A stretch of 26,005 nt of DNA from a virus: positions 1 through 26,005 of the IMG/VR virus record IMGVR_UViG_3300042344_000822; one strand, 5' to 3'. Below, piece after piece: positions 1-12,518 of this stretch (position 1 is the stretch's first letter; each line of letters starts with the position of its first letter). A program made the position numbers and the translations under genes. The notes beneath the pieces were generated by a model, which searched no databases, was not told where the DNA came from, and was given only the letters and a program-made list of their open reading frames with translations.

Positions 1-338
1 CACACAACGCCCACGCCCCACTCCGCCAGCGCCAACTCGCGCGCCTTCTTCGCCGTGTCGCAGCCGTGCTCCAGGTGCCAGGCCACGCGCTGCGCTAGGA
101 ACGCGGTCTCGCCGCTGAGGTCGGCGATGCGCTGGCGCAGCGTCGCGTCTGCCGCCCGGTCGCGCATCATCATCGCGTTGGCGACACGCTCGCTCACGCT
201 GGCATTCGCCGCGGCCACGCTGGCCTTCATCGTGTCGCGCTCCGACTCCAGGTCGGCGATGCGCTGGCGCGCGTGCCTCAGGTCGCGGCGCATGGTGTCG
301 ACCACGTCGGCGCTGTAGACCTTCTCCCCGCCGCTCAC
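1..338 (-). CDS. Coiled-coil protein of unknown function, C-terminus off the left edge
   Basis: This is an open frame of 112 codons running off the left edge of the window. The start chosen is GTG at 338, which overlaps the stop of the preceding gene as GTGA, the usual join in this genome. The translation begins VSGGEKVYSADVVDTMRRDL and continues as a highly charged helical stretch rich in Arg, Glu, Ala and Met, with heptad-like spacing, so a coiled coil is likely. It contains two similar short segments, QRIADLE near residue 28 and QRIADLS near residue 70, a possible weak internal repeat. No enzymatic motif is visible. It lies downstream of int and of the 82-residue gene, so it belongs to the far end of the leftward operon. 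The function is unknown. The reading is supported by frame continuity and translational coupling rather than by similarity. Confidence 0.6.
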   Translation of the reverse strand, partial: MSGGEKVYSADVVDTMRRDLRHARQRIADLESERDTMKASVAAANASVSERVANAMMMRDRAADATLRQRIADLSGETAFLAQRVAWHLEHGCDTAKKARELALAEWGVGVV

Positions 339-583
339 GCCCGCACCTCCACACCCTCGGCCAGCGCCGGCAGCACGCGCTCGGTCGGGCGCTCGTGGCG
401 GTCGGCAAGGAGGTCCTCTCGGCCGTAGTCGTGGAGCTGCGCGCGGAGCGAGGCCAACGCCGCCGCCGCCGCACGCGAGCGGTCGAGGTCGGCGAGCGAG
501 CACGCGGGGCGCGTCACAGCGGCCGAGAGCTCGCGGGTGATGGCCAGGATCTTGGGGTCGGTCAGGACGAGTCGAAGGCTCAT
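335..583 (-). CDS. Small protein of unknown function with its own operator-like promoter
   Basis: The 82-residue protein begins with ATG at 583 and overlaps the next gene by four bases (GTGA). The N-terminal half (MSLRLVLTDPKILAITREL) reads like a compact alpha-helical domain. The middle is an Ala/Arg/Leu-rich helix and the end is acidic. No known family is recognised. It lies 36 bp downstream of the integrase stop. That gap is AT-rich and holds a TTGACG box and an inverted repeat, so the gene can be expressed independently of int. A small, separately controlled gene next to int could be an excision or regulatory factor (for example a recombination directionality factor), but nothing in the protein proves this. 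Confidence 0.6.
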   Translation of the reverse strand: MSLRLVLTDPKILAITRELSAAVTRPACSLADLDRSRAAAAALASLRAQLHDYGREDLLADRHERPTERVLPALAEGVEVRA

Positions 584-589
584 GTCCTG

Positions 590-618
590 TATCTAGTATT
601 TAGATGATAGAGCGTCAA
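590..618 (-). promoter_or_regulatory. Promoter with overlapping inverted-repeat operator
   Basis: Reading leftward there is a -35-like TTGACG at 618-613, a 17 bp spacer, and a -10-like TAGATA at 595-590. The inverted repeat ATCTA-gtatt-TAGAT at 591-605 covers the -10 box and half of the spacer, which is where a repressor would block polymerase. The predicted start of transcription, about 7 bp after the -10, falls at the ATG at 583, so the message could be leaderless. The -35 match is good and the -10 match is moderate. The assignment comes from spacing and symmetry only. Confidence 0.45.
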
Positions 619-619
619 G

Positions 620-1702
620 CTACTCGCTAAAAGATATTCCGCCACCGAAGCGCAGCCGCAGCTGCTCGGGCTCGGTGACGGGCGCCGGTGCGATCTCGCC
701 CGCGAACGGGATCCGCTCGACTTCCGCGGCGATCTGGCTCCACTCCGTCCGCGAGTAGCCCTCGACCACGTCCCGGCTCCGGGCGTGGGTCACTTGCCGG
801 ATGAGCCCCGGCTCACACCGTGCGGCGCGGGCGGCTGTGAGGAACGTGTGCCGGAGCGCGTGGGGTGACCGACCCTTGCGCAGCCCCAGCACGGCCAGGT
901 CCTGCCGCATCCGCGCCGCGGCATTGTCGCCGCGCACAGGGGTGCCGTTGCCTGTGGGCACCAGCAGGTCCTCCCCGCGCGGGATGCGGCCGTGCCGACC
1001 GGCCCAGCCGAGGGCGTGCCACCAGGTCAGGCCGCGGGCGAGGGTCGAGTGGACCGGGACCCGGCGCACCGTCGCGGTCTTCGTCGCGCCCATCCGCCGC
1101 TCGCGGCAGTCGAACGACCGGGCCACGAACAGCTCGAGCCCGCCCACCGAGCTCCGCCGCAGGTCCGACCAGCGCAGCGCGGCGACCTCCCCGATCCGCA
1201 TCCCCGCCATGCCGCACAGTCCCCACAGCACCCGCCGCTGGGCAGGCACCCGAGGGTCCGAGACCAGCTGAGCCAGCTCGTCCAGCGCGAACCAGAACCC
1301 CGCCCGCCACTCCGGGTCGGCGTCCGCATCCGCCGGGAGGTCGGCCGGCCCCAGGATGCACGGCGTTGAGGGGATGATGCCGTCCACCACCGCGTCCCGC
1401 AGCACCCAGCTCAGCGTCGCGTAGGCGTGCCGCACCGTGCGCGGCGCCAGGTCCTCGGCCAGCCGCGCCACCCAGACCCGCACCCACGCGGCCGTGATGT
1501 CGGCCAGCGGGACGCCCGCGAAGGCCGGCCGCGCGTAGCTCTCCAGCCGCTGCCGGTCCGTCCGTAGCGAGCGCGGACGCACCTGAGCCCGCCTCGCCAG
1601 CCACCGATCCACGTACACGCCGAAGGTGCAGTCGGGGGCCGCCGTCGGCGCCGAAAGGCGCGCCAGCTCGGCAGCGGGCACACGAGGAGAGCGAGAACGC
1701 AT
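620..1702 (-). CDS. int: Tyrosine recombinase integrase
   Basis: The 360-residue protein is a phage-type tyrosine integrase that would recombine attP with a tRNA-Thr attB. An N-terminal SAM-like core-binding domain spans roughly residues 25-110, and the catalytic domain runs from about 135 to 325. The catalytic set is visible: Arg169 in GMRIGE, Lys208 in GATKTAT, His281 and Arg284 in HALRH, His306 in QVTHARS and the nucleophile Tyr316 in EGYSR. There is no obvious N-terminal arm-binding zinc or beta domain, so the protein is on the short side. The ATG at 1702 is preferred over an upstream TTG at 1741 because GGAGGA sits 9 nt before it. The gene lies 96 bp downstream of the small DNA-binding-like gene and next to the att core, the usual int-attP arrangement. 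Family assignment is secure. Directionality and partner factors are not visible. Confidence 0.95.
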   Translation of the reverse strand: MRSRSPRVPAAELARLSAPTAAPDCTFGVYVDRWLARRAQVRPRSLRTDRQRLESYARPAFAGVPLADITAAWVRVWVARLAEDLAPRTVRHAYATLSWVLRDAVVDGIIPSTPCILGPADLPADADADPEWRAGFWFALDELAQLVSDPRVPAQRRVLWGLCGMAGMRIGEVAALRWSDLRRSSVGGLELFVARSFDCRERRMGATKTATVRRVPVHSTLARGLTWWHALGWAGRHGRIPRGEDLLVPTGNGTPVRGDNAAARMRQDLAVLGLRKGRSPHALRHTFLTAARAARCEPGLIRQVTHARSRDVVEGYSRTEWSQIAAEVERIPFAGEIAPAPVTEPEQLRLRFGGGISFSE

Positions 1703-1762
1703 GAGCGATCTTCCTCCGAGGGCGCACGTCTGGTGCGTCAAAGTAGCGTGGAAATCATTGCG

Positions 1763-1792
1763 TTCGCGCGCGTGAGCAAGGCGGCGCGCGAA
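1763..1792. repeat. Nine-base-pair inverted repeat between attP core and int
   Basis: TTCGCGCGC at 1763-1771 and its exact complement GCGCGCGAA at 1784-1792 are separated by 12 bp. The repeat lies in the 96 bp gap between the stop of the upstream gene and the int ATG. As RNA it forms a GC-rich hairpin just after the upstream stop but has no U-tract, so it is not a textbook terminator. It could also be a pair of protein-binding sites in the P arm. The symmetry is seen directly; the role is inferred. Confidence 0.5.
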
Positions 1793-1798
1793 TGAAAA

Positions 1799-2194
1799 TC
1801 AGGCGGCTTTCGCCGAGGGATTCTGATCGTGGCGAGCGCGCGGTTTCGTAAACCGCAGGTCACCGGTTCGATCCCGGTCGTTGGCTTCCCCACCCACGCG
1901 CCGCTTCCCCTTCCCGCCCCCACCCGGGGACGGTGCCGGCCCGCCGCTCAGCGCGACCGCCATTGCCCGCGTCGACTCCAGCCGCTCCCGCGCCCGATCG
2001 AGGTCCGACGCAAAGCGCCAGACCACCGCGACCGACACACCATACTGCTCGGCCAGGGCCTGCGCCTCGGCGGCACGGTCGGCCTGCTCGGTGTGGGGGA
2101 CATTGCGGTACAGGAGGCCCGAGTCCTTGGGACGCGGGCCGCGCTTCTTCGGCGAAGTTTTCGGGTCGGGGGCCGGCGGGATCTTCTTGCTCAT
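1799..2194 (-). CDS. Small helix-turn-helix-like protein, candidate repressor, whose 3' end contains attP
   Basis: The 131-residue frame starts at ATG 2194 (MSKKIPPAPD). The N-terminus is basic and Pro/Lys-rich. Residues about 36-70 form two or three helices with a helix-turn-helix-like pattern, ALAEQYGVSVAVVWRFASDL, which would bind DNA. A Pro/Gly/Lys-rich linker follows (about 84-103). Residues 104-118 are simply the antisense translation of the tRNA-Thr core (..RTGDLRFTKP), and the last 13 residues, RARHDQNPSAKAA, are encoded on the int side of attP. The coding region is therefore cut and re-ended by integration. The -AA terminus resembles ClpXP/ssrA-type tails. Position upstream of int, size and HTH-like pattern match a phage immunity repressor, but no family match could be tested. 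An in-frame TTG at 2230 would add 12 residues, but it coincides with the -35 box. The protein could instead be an excisionase-like or other small regulator. Confidence 0.6.
   Translation of the reverse strand: MSKKIPPAPDPKTSPKKRGPRPKDSGLLYRNVPHTEQADRAAEAQALAEQYGVSVAVVWRFASDLDRARERLESTRAMAVALSGGPAPSPGGGGKGKRRVGGEANDRDRTGDLRFTKPRARHDQNPSAKAA
1840..1886 (+). other. attP: attP core: 3' half of tRNA-Thr(CGT)
   Basis: A 3' tRNA half is present on the plus strand: anticodon stem GCGGT (1840-1844), loop TTCGTAA with anticodon CGT (1847-1849), stem ACCGC (1852-1856), variable AGGTC, T arm ACCGG-TTCGATC-CCGGT (1862-1878), and acceptor strand CGTTGGC (1879-1885). The matching 5' acceptor strand GCCAACG and a proper D arm are absent upstream, so this is not a functional tRNA gene. 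Integrases of this family commonly use tRNA 3' ends, and the fragment lies beside int, so this is the attachment core. Integration would rebuild an intact tRNA at one junction. The true identity block may be slightly shorter or longer than marked, and the crossover is probably at or near the anticodon loop. Confidence 0.85.
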
Positions 2195-2201
2195 ATCTAC
2201 T

Positions 2202-2230
2202 CGTATGCAGACGTTTCGGTGCACCGTCAA
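2202..2230 (-). promoter_or_regulatory. Promoter of the attP-overlapping regulator, with palindromic operator candidate
   Basis: Reading leftward there is TTGACG at 2230-2225, 17 bp, and CATACG at 2207-2202. The predicted start falls at about 2195, next to the ATG at 2194, so the transcript could be leaderless. A perfect 10 bp palindrome, CGGTGCACCG, lies at 2217-2226 between the two boxes, a plausible site for autoregulation. The -10 match is weak (3 of 6), so the call rests mainly on the -35, the spacing and the palindrome. Confidence 0.4.
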
Positions 2231-2297
2231 CGGCTGAACACCTGCTCCGGCCGGGGCGCGCGGCCGCCCTCACATCGCATCACGCTGATGTCCGGAT

Positions 2298-2675
2298 CTA
2301 CGTCGCGAGCGCTGCCTCATACGCCTCACGGATCGTCGGGCCGTGACTGGTGCGGATCATGTAGCCGCGCTGCACAACGACCGCCCACCCCTCGCCTCCC
2401 ACGGCCTGAGCTCGCGCGACCTCGCGCCCGTCGTCGTAGATCACCGCGTGACCCCGACCGCGCAGTATGGGCCACGGCCCGGGCTCAAGCCCGAGCGCTC
2501 GCCGGGTGAGGGTGGCGACGGGCCAGCCGCACGCCGCGACCCACTCGGCGAGCTGCTCGGCCTGAGCCGCCGTCAGGCGGGGCGCGGCGAGCCGCTCGCC
2601 CGCCGCCCGGCCCGAGGGGCGGCGGCCCGCACCCGCTCGAGCGCCGCCCCGGCCGGGCTTCGCTGGGCGGGTCAT
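2298..2675 (-). CDS. Hypothetical protein with basic Gly/Arg-rich N-terminus
   Basis: The 125-residue protein starts at ATG 2675, overlapping the previous stop as ATGA. The first 30 residues (RPAKPGRGGARAGAGRR..) are a basic, Gly/Arg-rich tail like those on small terminase subunits and other phage DNA-binding proteins. The middle (about 35-65) is helical, with PRLTAAQAEQLAEWV. The C-terminal half is predicted beta-rich (GHAVIYDDGREVARAQAV, then WAVVVQRGYMIR). A DNA-binding role is possible from the tail alone. The family is not recognised. It is the last gene before the regulator's promoter, with about 100 bp between them. Confidence 0.65.
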   Translation of the reverse strand: MTRPAKPGRGGARAGAGRRPSGRAAGERLAAPRLTAAQAEQLAEWVAACGWPVATLTRRALGLEPGPWPILRGRGHAVIYDDGREVARAQAVGGEGWAVVVQRGYMIRTSHGPTIREAYEAALAT

Positions 2676-3067
2676 CGGCCGACCTGGGCTTGGGCCGCCG
2701 CTCCGACGATCGCCGCTGCGATCATGTTGAGGGGCCCCGCCGCACGCGCCCAAGCCTCTCTCACCTCGTCTGGAGACTCCACGCTGGGCCACCTCGACGA
2801 CTCCCACCACTCACGGCGATAGGCGATGGTCTCATCTCTGCCTCTGGGGACCGAAGCGTCATCGACCTCGGCACGCGCGCGCTCGATGAGCGGCGCCAGC
2901 TCGGGGACCGCCACGGTCGCACGCCAGCGATCCAACGGGGTGGTCCAGGTCGCACGCCACAACGCGACTAGAGACGTGGCGACCTCCACGCCGATGCTCT
3001 CTCGCGCGGCCTCGCCCACGCCGAGCGCCAGGTGGGCCAGGGCTAGGCGGCTCTCGTCGCGGCTCAC
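2672..3067 (-). CDS. Hypothetical helical protein
   Basis: The 131-residue protein starts at GTG 3067, overlapping the upstream stop as GTGA, and its own stop overlaps the next ATG. It is mostly alpha-helical, rich in Ala, Arg, Glu and Trp, with a Trp-rich central segment (LVALWRATWTTPLDRWRA, about residues 33-50) and a small, Ala-rich hydrophobic C-terminus (LNMIAAAIVGAAAQAQ). No catalytic motif is seen. The close coupling on both sides shows it belongs to the 3.9-2.3 kb set of small genes between the structural region and the regulator. Function unknown. Confidence 0.65.
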   Translation of the reverse strand: MSRDESRLALAHLALGVGEAARESIGVEVATSLVALWRATWTTPLDRWRATVAVPELAPLIERARAEVDDASVPRGRDETIAYRREWWESSRWPSVESPDEVREAWARAAGPLNMIAAAIVGAAAQAQVGR

Positions 3068-3424: not shown

Positions 3425-3895
3425 CTAGGCGTTGGCCATCGCCCGAGTCCGCGTCTCGATGATCATTGCCTCGGCCTGGCTCCGGGCCACCGAGTCACGG
3501 GCGAGGGCCCGCCGCGCGAGCTGCGCGGTCGCGTCGTCGCCCGCCGCCTCCGCCTCGGCGCCGAGGGCGCGCACGTCGTCGTCGGTCGCGCTGATCTGGC
3601 ACGCGGCGACCCAGGCGCGGCCGAGCAGGTCGGTGAGCTGCGCCTCGGTCACACGGCCGTCCGAGGCGTCTTCGATGTACGAGCCGCGGCGGACGTCGGG
3701 GCCCTCGCCCCGGATGCGGCACCCCTCGACCTCACCTTGACGAGTCGGCCGCACGGTGATCGACAGGTCGTCGCCCTCGTGAGCCGAGAGCCACTCGGTC
3801 ATGTACGCGCAGCGTGCGGCGTGCTCCTCGGTGGTGACGGGGGCGCCCCAGGCATCGGCGCTCAGTACGTGGGTCAGGCGGATCTCGGTGGTCAT
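3425..3895 (-). CDS. Hypothetical acidic protein, first gene after the AT-rich promoter gap
   Basis: The 156-residue protein starts at ATG 3895, preceded by ACGAGAGAGACC, nearly the same leader that precedes the gene at 3318. The N-terminal half is beta-rich (TEIRLTHVLSADAWGAPV, then DLSITVRPTRQGEVEGCRI). The C-terminal half is a run of acidic and Ala-rich helices. No family or motif is recognised. It is the first gene of the short set that leads toward the regulator, and it follows a 119 bp AT-richer gap, so it is probably transcribed from a promoter of its own. Confidence 0.65.
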   Translation of the reverse strand: MTTEIRLTHVLSADAWGAPVTTEEHAARCAYMTEWLSAHEGDDLSITVRPTRQGEVEGCRIRGEGPDVRRGSYIEDASDGRVTEAQLTDLLGRAWVAACQISATDDDVRALGAEAEAAGDDATAQLARRALARDSVARSQAEAMIIETRTRAMANA

Positions 3896-3948
3896 GGTCT
3901 CTCTCGTTTCTGCCGGGTGCGCTGTCACGCCCCGACGAGAGAGACTCT

Positions 3949-4010
3949 ACGCGTTCTCTGGTTCGTGGTCTACCGTAATTCAAACAATCGTACAACCGTA
4001 GCAACGGCGG
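3949..4010 (-). promoter_or_regulatory. AT-richer gap with direct repeats, likely promoter for the small-gene set
   Basis: The 119 bp gap between 3895 and 4015 is clearly poorer in G+C than its surroundings. It holds two direct ACCGTA copies at 3972-3977 and 3995-4000, 23 bp apart (about two helical turns), flanking an A/T-rich core. Leftward, TTGTAC near 3993 followed 17 bp later by TAGACC is a possible weak promoter. Spacing and composition suggest a regulated start point; no box is strong. Confidence 0.3.
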
Positions 4011-4014
4011 CGAC

Positions 4015-4518
4015 TTACGCGGGAGGGTCGGTCTTCGCTCGGCTGGGCGTGAGGCTCGACGGCAGGTCCGGCGTGGGGTCCGGGTCGTCGCGGAGGGGCA
4101 CCGGAGGCGCGACCAGGCGGTGACCGTCGGGCGGGGTCTCGGCCAGGGGGTCGAGCGCGGTGGTGACCGTGCTGTGGCCCATGCCTGGCGTCGGGCGCAC
4201 GCCCACGCGGGCGAGCACGTCGCGCACCTCGCGCTGGCGTGTGGTGCGCTCGATCTGTAGCTCGCGGGCCAGCTGCTCGGCGCGCTCGACACACGCGGCC
4301 TCGGCGGCTCGAGACTCGTGGGCGATCGCAGCCATGTCTTCAGAGAGCCGCCGTTGCGTGTCGACGATCTGCATCCACGCCGCACCCTGCGCCTGGCTCA
4401 CGCTCGCCTCGACGCCCGCGACCTCGGCGCGAGCTCGGCGCCGGCCCGTGACCCAGCCGACCGCGCCGGTGCACGCGCTGATGGCTGCTGCTACGAGGTC
4501 GCTCGGGTCGAGGGGCAT
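4015..4518 (-). CDS. Membrane-anchored coiled-coil protein, spanin-like or structural
   Basis: The 167-residue protein starts at ATG 4518 with GGGAGA seven bases upstream, one base after the previous stop. Residues about 8-26 (LVAAAISACTGAVGWVTG) are a short hydrophobic segment followed by Arg-rich residues (RRRARA), as in an N-in membrane anchor. Residues about 30-110 are a charged heptad-rich coiled coil. The end is Pro-rich (DPDPTPDLPSSL). This order resembles an inner-membrane spanin (Rz-like), but the hydrophobic stretch is weak and the gene is 5 kb from the amidase. It ends the late operon before the AT-rich gap. A role in lysis is a possibility only. Confidence 0.6.
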   Translation of the reverse strand: MPLDPSDLVAAAISACTGAVGWVTGRRRARAEVAGVEASVSQAQGAAWMQIVDTQRRLSEDMAAIAHESRAAEAACVERAEQLARELQIERTTRQREVRDVLARVGVRPTPGMGHSTVTTALDPLAETPPDGHRLVAPPVPLRDDPDPTPDLPSSLTPSRAKTDPPA

Positions 4519-4519
4519 A

Positions 4520-4861
4520 TCATGGTCTCCCGCGGCGGTCGCTGGCCGGCCACCACGTCGCGAGCGGGCGCGGAGCTGCGAGCCCGGACAGGCGTGGAGG
4601 GTCCGCGGCGCCGGCCGCGGGTGCGCAGGGTGGAGCCACGTCCGGCGCCGTGGGTGCGCCACCGTCGGGCGCAGAGAGTGATGCGGCCGCCCGCGCGACC
4701 GCGGCTAGTGCCTGGCGTAGCTCGGAGCACTCCGCCCGCACCCGCTCCAGCTCATCGGTCCGCGCCTGTAGCGCCCGGTGCAGCGCAGCCTCAGGCGCGA
4801 CGGTGATCCCGGCCGCGCGGCGCTCGGCCATGACGTCGTCGATGATCTCTGGGCGGCTCAT
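4520..4861 (-). CDS. Hypothetical coiled-coil protein with Pro/Ala-rich tail
   Basis: The 113-residue protein starts at ATG 4861, overlapping the preceding stop as ATGA. Residues 1-60 are a helical, heptad-like region (LHRALQARTDELERVRAECS). From about residue 65 the sequence becomes low-complexity, rich in Ala, Pro, Asp and Arg, and is probably disordered. No family is recognised. Tight coupling to both neighbours places it in the same operon as the membrane-anchored proteins around it. Confidence 0.6.
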   Translation of the reverse strand: MSRPEIIDDVMAERRAAGITVAPEAALHRALQARTDELERVRAECSELRQALAAVARAAASLSAPDGGAPTAPDVAPPCAPAAGAADPPRLSGLAAPRPLATWWPASDRRGRP

Positions 4862-5130
4862 CGCTCACCGTCCGTCACCAGCCGAAACGCCCGCTGTTTC
4901 CACGCCGGCCACGTCGCGACCTCGGCCGCGTTGGCCTCTAGGAACGCGAGGAAGTGCGCGCGGTCCTCCTCGCTGACCTGCGGCACCATGTCGGGGTCGA
5001 AGTCGCTCGCGACAGCGAGCACGGGGCCGCGCTCCCCCATGTTGGCGGGGCCGGGCAACGTCTGCGCCCGCTCCAGCCGTGACAGGCTCGCTCGCTCCGC
5101 CATCCATCGCGCCGCGTCGTATTCCTTCAC
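4858..5130 (-). CDS. Small hypothetical protein
   Basis: The 90-residue protein starts at GTG 5130, overlapping the previous stop as GTGA, and its stop overlaps the next ATG. It begins VKEYDAARWMAERASLSRLE, a helix, then has a loop with Gly/Pro, an acidic segment (DFDPDMVPQVSEEDRAHFLA) and a Trp-containing helix (TWPAWKQRAFRLV). It has no membrane segment and no known motif. The function is unknown. Confidence 0.65.
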   Translation of the reverse strand: MKEYDAARWMAERASLSRLERAQTLPGPANMGERGPVLAVASDFDPDMVPQVSEEDRAHFLAFLEANAAEVATWPAWKQRAFRLVTDGER

Positions 5131-12122: not shown

Positions 12123-12518
12123 ATGCGGTCTCCCCTGCCCCTGCTCCTGCTCTGTGTGGCCGCCTGCGGTGAGGGGCGTGAGCCGCCCGCCGGCGGGCGC
12201 CCGTCCTACGAGGTCGTCGACGTCAGCGACCCGGACGCGCTGGCCGACTGCTACGCGCCGAAGATGATCCTCATCCCGAACGACCCGGACCGCTTCTCGC
12301 AGTATGCGGGGCAGCCCACCGAGAACTGCGCCACCGAGTGCACCCAGATAAGCCGGTGCCGCAGCGTGTGTGCCGACACACCGGACGCATGCCCGCCGGG
12401 TGATGGGGCCGAGGGCCAGGCTGGGACCTGCGAACCGCAGCTCGCGGACTCGGTGCGGATGTTGGGCTACGTGGTGCCGCGCTGGCCGCTGAAGCGCTGC
12501 GACGAGCCGCCGGGCTAG
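12123..12518 (+). CDS. Cysteine-rich lipoprotein, probable lysogenic-conversion (moron) gene
   Basis: This is the only plus-strand gene. The 131-residue protein begins MRSPLPLLLLCVAACGEG: a basic n-region, a Leu-rich core and a lipobox VAAC with Cys15 as the lipidation site. The next residue is Gly, so by the usual +2 rule it would go to the outer membrane. The mature part holds eight further cysteines, mostly in a short region (ENCATECTQISRCRSVC and DACPPG), consistent with disulfides. No family is recognised. It has its own TTGACG promoter, sits inside the late operon, and its stop codon shares the palindrome CTAG with the opposite gene. Such isolated, oppositely oriented genes are typically expressed in the lysogen. 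A surface role such as superinfection exclusion is possible but unproven. Confidence 0.8.
   Translation: MRSPLPLLLLCVAACGEGREPPAGGRPSYEVVDVSDPDALADCYAPKMILIPNDPDRFSQYAGQPTENCATECTQISRCRSVCADTPDACPPGDGAEGQAGTCEPQLADSVRMLGYVVPRWPLKRCDEPPG

Follow-up and report, generated by a model that had tools for sequence, protein, structure and literature searches.

Does integration of this phage rewrite a protein encoded across its attachment site and, if it does, is the rewritten protein an immunity repressor? The question is raised by a minus-strand frame of 131 codons which lies directly upstream of an integrase gene (int) and runs through a candidate attP core. A sequence-only reading had proposed that integration would cut a destabilising tail from the product of this frame and thereby stabilise a repressor. 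Integration-dependent immunity of this kind is described for the mycobacteriophages BPs and Brujita, and is also reported for Gordonia and Bifidobacterium phages.

The window analysed here is the whole of an IMG/VR virus record, 26,005 bases in length. Over positions 3-3000 it matches, at 100% identity, a segment close to the end of another record, G001 (IMGVR_UViG_3300044844_001309, 53,356 bases), and by eye the likeness extends to approximately 4011. The first 127 bases of G001 are an exact repeat of its last 127 bases (verified by script), and G001 can therefore be joined into a circular molecule of 53,229 bp, to about half of which the window corresponds. Just past the near-identity a clear divergence is seen by eye between the window from 4011 onward and G001 from 127 onward, so that the two contigs represent distinct strains or a recombinant. 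Both records have an intact attachment region and the same locus, which in the case of circular G001 fits a free or circular form of the phage. Elsewhere in the window, a plus-strand frame at 12123-12518 with a lipoprotein-like signal (MRSPLPLLLLCVAACGEG...) lies amid minus-strand tail genes; its codon score is near zero, a simple gene caller does not call it, and judged by eye it is a possible lysogenic-conversion or superinfection-exclusion gene.

Table 1. Features of the attachment region in window coordinates.
Feature	Position	Strand	Details
Tyrosine integrase (int)	620..1702	-	360 aa from ATG 1702 (373 aa from TTG 1741); PF00589, PF22022
Gap between frame and int	1703..1798	-	96 nt
131-codon frame upstream of int	1799..2194	-	ATG at 2194, stop 1799-1801
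Frame, layout of product	1799..2194	-	Basic N-terminus (KKRGPRPK), predicted helical hairpin 34-83, P/G-rich linker
Frame, 3' part	1799..2194	-	Residues 103-118 antisense to tRNA core, then tail RARHDQNPSAKAA
Phage-specific tail	1799..1840	-	Codons 119-131 and stop; predicted to be lost on integration
Candidate attP core	1840..1886	+	3' half of tRNA-Thr(CGT), anticodon stem to discriminator base
Intergenic region upstream of frame	2195..2297	-	Perfect inverted repeat CATCA-N3-TGATG at 2278-2290
Next frame upstream of 131-codon frame	2298..2675	-	Coding score near zero

The candidate attachment core and the frame across it

The core had been read as the 3' half of a tRNA-Thr(CGT), and this identification was borne out: it holds an anticodon arm (TTCGTAA), variable loop, T arm, 3' acceptor strand and discriminator base, and is identical at 46 of its 47 bases to tRNA-Thr(cgt) genes called by ARAGORN in L011 and L012 and at 44 of 47 to one in L013, these three being contigs of Verrucomicrobia metagenome-assembled genomes (MAGs). 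No complete tRNA was called by ARAGORN, either in the window or in three stretches of G001, and the alignment of the Rfam tRNA model to 1812-1886 reaches 26.6 bits, short of the cut-off of 29. We infer that this core is the working attP. The frame itself has the ATG and the stop that had been claimed for it and shares strand and, with one stop and the gap between them, reading frame with int, whether int is taken to begin at 1702 or at 1741. The core lies 137 nt from the start codon at 1702, and attP is thus not inside int. The first base of codon 119 is position 1840, which confirms that the last 13 residues (119-131) are encoded on the int side of the core.

The core can be read without a stop in two of its three antisense registers, and when the downstream 98 bases were subjected to mononucleotide shuffling, 72% of the shuffles stayed open for at least 13 codons. 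A second minus-strand frame (1923-1738, 61 codons, register 2) also runs across the entire core, with a score of -22 bits. A frame crossing attP is therefore unremarkable in itself. If overlap is all that exists here, the locus offers a caution that antisense tRNA frames make layouts with an att site inside a gene easy to over-read.

The sequence-only reading had called for the host tRNA locus to be read across the junction. No match to the exact 47-bp core was found in the species genome-contig collection, so a host with that core is not represented there, and no lysogen was found; a relaxed core pattern retrieved three contigs, all from Verrucomicrobia MAGs, and it was across these near-identical tRNA-Thr loci that the new 3' end could be read. 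The integrase is present in none of the three tRNA-matching genomes and in none of 387 Verrucomicrobiota at an E-value of 1e-8. As a guess, the host belongs to the Myxococcota; an actinobacterial host is also possible.

The frame reads the tRNA antisense in the register ANDRDRTGDLRFTKP, and this register (register 1) is open across the whole tRNA and beyond in all three loci (ANDRVRTGDLRFTKPLLYQLSYVG in L011 and L012). The predicted lysogen products have 134 (L012), 251 (L013) and more than 302 residues (L011), as against 131 in the phage form. Register 0 meets a stop within the core and register 2 meets one just past it, in the tRNA 5' half; judging from these sequences, a truncation switch would need register 2, whereas the frame sits in the lengthening register 1. 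Because the tRNA is open in the frame's register, any host whose tRNA is similar would yield a lysogen form of at least approximately 127 residues. In L011 (101-599, minus strand), from a Methylacidiphilum MAG, the antisense tRNA-Thr register is seen by eye to continue, with no stop, into an integrase-like N-terminus.

Coding signal and predicted product of the frame

Codon-usage scoring, trained on the structural genes plus int, gives the frame +13.0 bits over 1887-2194, where it is the sole positive of six frames (the others ranging from -26 to -119). By block, codons 1-30 score +5.9, codons 31-60 +10.4 and codons 61-100 -1.4 bits, from which a gene probably starts at the frame's ATG; the tRNA part scores -6.4 and the 13-codon tail -3.7 bits, so that core and tail are not coding-like, and nothing points to coding selection on the last 30 codons. 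The whole frame scores +1.5 when int is omitted from the training, and the simple gene caller, whose threshold is 5 bits, did not include it among its calls. By eye there is no clear ribosome-binding site before the frame, and RNA folding of the region revealed nothing unusual.

A helix-turn-helix (HTH)-like segment had been noted in the N-terminal part. It is reflected in a Pfam match to HTH_11 at residues 42-76, which at 17 bits falls below the cut-off of 25, as does a match to LPD22 (19.8 bits, cut-off 28.6); the profile search that had been suggested for an HTH repressor family accordingly returned no match over the Pfam cut-offs. PHROGs yielded nothing significant and NCBIfam no match, the best hit of a PDB sequence search was no better than E 0.4, and a fold search from the poor single-sequence model of the frame gave nothing better than E 1.8. 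In that model (AlphaFold2, single sequence, pTM 0.30) helices are predicted at 34-51 and 55-83, with block means of pLDDT of 89 and 91 at residues 41-60 and lower values elsewhere. A DNA-binding hairpin is plausible on this model, and it is with its N-terminal part that the protein would contact DNA.

The phage form ends in -AKAA, as had been pointed out in likening it to ssrA-type tails. Among the 242 stop-to-stop frames of 60 or more codons in the window, such -AA ends occur in only two, and among its 32 listed genes in one, namely the frame itself; 0.5% of shuffled tails have AA before the first stop. Across the whole genome, four of the 72 called genes, among which the frame does not figure, end in -AA as well, one of them with winged-helix matches. 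Since these other genes end likewise, the -AA end is treated here as weak support for a switch. The integrase C-terminus reads -SFSE and carries no tag.

Conservation of the frame across attP in relatives had been proposed as a further check, and only the same phage was found to share it: tblastn against phages and plasmids and the scan of viral contigs detected no relative beyond it, G001 alone carries the frame among G001 and nine records with related integrases, and it is present in none of 15 records with related terminases, chosen from 22 loci; two of the 15 records are short pieces of the same phage. Two candidates in L004 were rejected. One (31% identity, E 9e-6 among candidates) has an internal stop and is a stretch antisense to a portal-like gene; the other, a small protein with the motif PKKRGPRPKD, aligns at 34% over 50 residues in an alignment driven by that basic motif.

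Integrase relatives and candidate repressors

The matches of the integrase to PF00589 and PF22022 are just over cut-off. It matches 26 phage records (14 Gordonia, five Mycobacterium, four Myxococcus, two Bifidobacterium and one Thermus), and IntP of Myxococcus phage Mx8 is by far the best of these at 32%, the other genera giving lower scores. In the viral scan, by two-sequence alignment, ten loci were obtained: G001, Mx8 (L018) and eight more. Alignment with the five closer relatives (L016, L017, L019, L020 and Mx8) revealed that the integrase is without an N-terminal segment of approximately 30-40 residues before the core-binding domain which all five possess, and of which a start at TTG 1741 would give back just 13 residues. 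Pfam names no arm domain in the integrase relatives; from its position, the missing segment would be the arm domain. The repeats near the core are two-copy direct repeats of 85-92% only, none of them convincing as arm-type repeats. Short integrases of 275-284 aa are also found in the more distant L021-L024, and shortness by itself is therefore unspecific. In these four loci, which on sequence would form a phage group of their own, each short integrase has a small, similar gene before it at approximately 3500-4900 (L021: LTKLRKDAPGSIT...).

A tRNA spans the 3' end of int in L016, L017 and L020, and the int frame reads antisense across it; none was found at the int 3' end of L019. The tRNA is a tRNA-Pro in L016 and L017, and in all three it lies near the contig end. 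These three are apparently the prophage form of a C-terminal exchange of the integrase like that of Mx8, whose attP lies within int and in which integration gives int a new 3' end (PMC6070905). Proteins altered by integration thus have a precedent among these integrases, but in those cases it is the integrase itself that changes. In each of the five closer relatives, whose upstream genes were those scanned, an HTH_17 match is seen in the gene preceding int (uoi in Mx8; four of the five are over the Pfam cut-off and L020 is just below). The frame has no match to PF12728 (HTH_17), though it stands at that position, and the analogy to uoi/xis is therefore positional only.

A separate conventional repressor had been named as a finding that would speak against the switch, and one candidate touches that point. 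Only one of the 72 called genes is on the plus strand; it is called from 23619 within the open frame G001:23523-23909 (L007:3523-3909, plus strand), between portal-like and protease-like genes. Its product scores close to the HTH_3 cut-off (24.4 bits; 22.9 against 23 in a second scan) and hits PHROG 4583, a family of transcriptional repressors, with 2.6e-6; a third contig (G401) also has the gene, 99% identical. It may encode the immunity repressor or be an accessory gene. An inverted repeat of 28 bases, CCTGTA-N16-TACAGG, covers its GTG start (L007:3507-3534) and occurs once in L007; the window has one site with two mismatches, at 586-613 downstream of int, as had 17 of 100 shuffles.

The stretch 584-619, between int and the next gene, has 39% G+C within a phage of 71% G+C and holds a TTGACG hexamer (by eye) and a perfect palindrome, ATCTA-GTATT-TAGAT, at 591-605; it looks like a promoter-operator, and a consensus scan finds no promoter there. 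ATCTA-N5-TAGAT has this one perfect site, at the same place in L008, and none in L007, while the inverted repeat upstream of the frame (Table 1) has one perfect site, the same in L008, and single one-mismatch sites in L008 and L007. That intergenic region also has a TTGACG hexamer by eye, yet the consensus scan gives no promoter. These operator searches, which covered the window, L007 and L008, revealed no regulon that would name a repressor. The next frame upstream is on the same strand as the 131-codon frame, so that no divergent cro-like partner is seen; the plus-strand frame that overlaps it (2343-2822) scores -44 bits.

Competing explanations and known systems

Our confidence is evenly divided on the reading which we place first, namely that the frame is a small integration-module gene adjacent to int, with a 3' end overlapping attP, and that integration swaps its tail and unlinks it from int. 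The frame would occupy the place held in the closer integrase relatives by the small HTH gene (the uoi/xis position), and the 3' end of the frame would be crossed by attP. The free phage would make from it a protein of 131 residues. Upon integration into a host tRNA-Thr(CGT), the first 118 codons would stay beside the restored tRNA at one end of the prophage and int would move to the other; in place of its 13 C-terminal residues, the protein would gain residues read from the antisense strand of the tRNA 5' half (LLYQLSYVG...) and from host DNA. The change of C-terminus and the uncoupling from int would occur together; the geometry foreseen in the sequence-only reading, with loss of the tail, run-through into the antisense of the tRNA and separation from int, stands to that extent. 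The exchange of tails would most likely be a side effect of where the att site lies, and the most likely role of the protein is in the control of integration, excision or int expression, not in immunity. We counted in favour of this reading the identity of the core to tRNA genes, the same locus in circular G001, the sole positive codon score of the frame, the HTH_17 genes upstream of int in the relatives, the register open in all three loci and the HTH_3 candidate on the opposite strand. Counted against it were the missing HTH_17 match, the lack of any relative of the frame, the core and tail that are not coding-like, the omission of the frame by the gene caller, the immunity cassette of Brujita, which is equally similar in layout, and the failure to find a lysogen or host.

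That the frame is instead an immunity repressor of the BPs/Brujita type, degraded in its phage form through the -AA tail and stabilised when integration removes it, is the main rival reading and appears rather unlikely. It is supported by the anatomy, which is near that of Brujita in the size of int, the gap, the antisense tRNA-reading 3' part and the -AA end, the last being uncommon in the window, together with an integrase that is without the N-terminal segment and without clear arm repeats, as in such phages (PMC9635641 and PMC6109161), and a Brujita repressor that likewise stays below HTH cut-offs. It is opposed by lysogen forms that are lengthened in three loci when those of known systems are shorter (PMC9934374), by the frame sitting in register 1 and not in the register that gives a stop, by the absence of a divergent cro-like gene, by the -AA end on other called genes and its absence from int, by a BLASTP search with the Brujita repressor as query, which gave nothing, and by the short integrases of L021-L024. 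A more sceptical explanation, that the frame or its part past approximately codon 95 is not functional coding and is open merely through the antisense register of tRNA-Thr and a G+C content of 71%, would account for the open core registers and shuffled tails, the negative scores of core and tail, the lack of relatives in phage, plasmid and viral collections, the want of a clear ribosome-binding site and the absence of the frame from the calls. It is made improbable by the +16 bits of codons 1-60, the sole positive score among six frames over 1887-2194, the ATG start and the gene that relatives carry at that place upstream of int. Lastly, the tRNA-like core could be a relic, with the integrase using another site, for instance the int 3' end, as the tRNAs across int in L016, L017 and L020 (none in L019) and the attP inside int of Mx8 (PMC6070905) might suggest; this is highly improbable, given that 46 of 47 bases identical to tRNA genes would hardly be kept by a relic, and ARAGORN finds no complete tRNA in the window.

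On sequence, the layout of the locus strongly resembles that of Brujita, which is named as integration-dependent in PMC6109161. In Brujita, used as a control, the gp34 repressor of 128 aa ends in PNEHAA and is followed by a gap of 70 nt and an integrase of 318 aa; here the frame of 131 aa ends in -AKAA and the corresponding values are 96 nt and 360 aa. The last third of gp34 runs antisense through a tRNA-like T arm (Rfam match 2686-2703, plus strand), and the Brujita integrase too begins near its core-binding domain. Its repressor is below the cut-offs of Pfam HTH models (HTH_19 18.6 bits against 30.2), and weak HTH matches therefore leave room for a repressor. Brujita differs in having a divergent gene 35, a putative excisionase, across the control region, which the present locus does not have. 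The Gordonia phages Catfish and TinaLin, whose integrases match, carry a membrane-protein gene between repressor and int and are therefore no model for the locus.

With the BPs/Brujita type in general the locus shares a candidate attP core in the 3' end of a small same-strand gene directly upstream of int, a short integrase, no clear arm sites and the -AA C-terminus of the phage form; integration-dependent phages are described as armless, with an attP that has no arm-type sites (PMC9635641 and PMC6109161). It also shares a core antisense to a tRNA, which is a tRNA-Thr in some known systems (PMC9635641 and PMC9934374). It differs in a lysogen form that is predicted from three tRNA loci to be longer, the prophage forms of known systems being cut short by a host stop that lies in or close to attL (PMC9934374), in having no divergent cro-like gene, in an integrase closest to that of Mx8 and in a repressor role that is here putative. 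The comparison with tRNA-dependent lysogeny (Fionnbharth and others; PMC10865867) yields a tRNA gene as attB, an integrase-mediated process and attP beside int as common features; the core here, at 47 bp, would restore the tRNA, and no phage tRNA gene was found in the window or in three stretches of G001.

Concerning Mx8, the likeness lies in an att site within a coding frame, so that integration alters the C-terminus of a protein, and in the small HTH gene uoi, whose place upstream of int the frame takes. In Mx8 it is the integrase that is altered, attP being in the 3' part of int, whereas here the upstream gene is altered, int stays intact and the integrase is without the N-terminal segment. 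The locus may be a case in which integration-dependent control arose independently for a second time, with an Mx8-type integrase and probably outside the Actinobacteria; the integrase would have lost its N-terminal segment, attP would have moved into the upstream regulatory gene, and integration would exchange a destabilising tail for a host-encoded antisense-tRNA extension, with no truncation; we regard this scenario as unlikely. The literature matches listed, mostly titles and abstract openings, describe the coupling of lysogeny to integration by a frame across attP for actinobacteriophages and contain no case of integration-dependent immunity for hosts beyond the Actinobacteria. The occurrence of the same anatomy with an Mx8-related integrase would make it possible to ask whether this layout has arisen repeatedly in evolution, and whether truncation can be replaced in its effect by a host-encoded extension of the protein.
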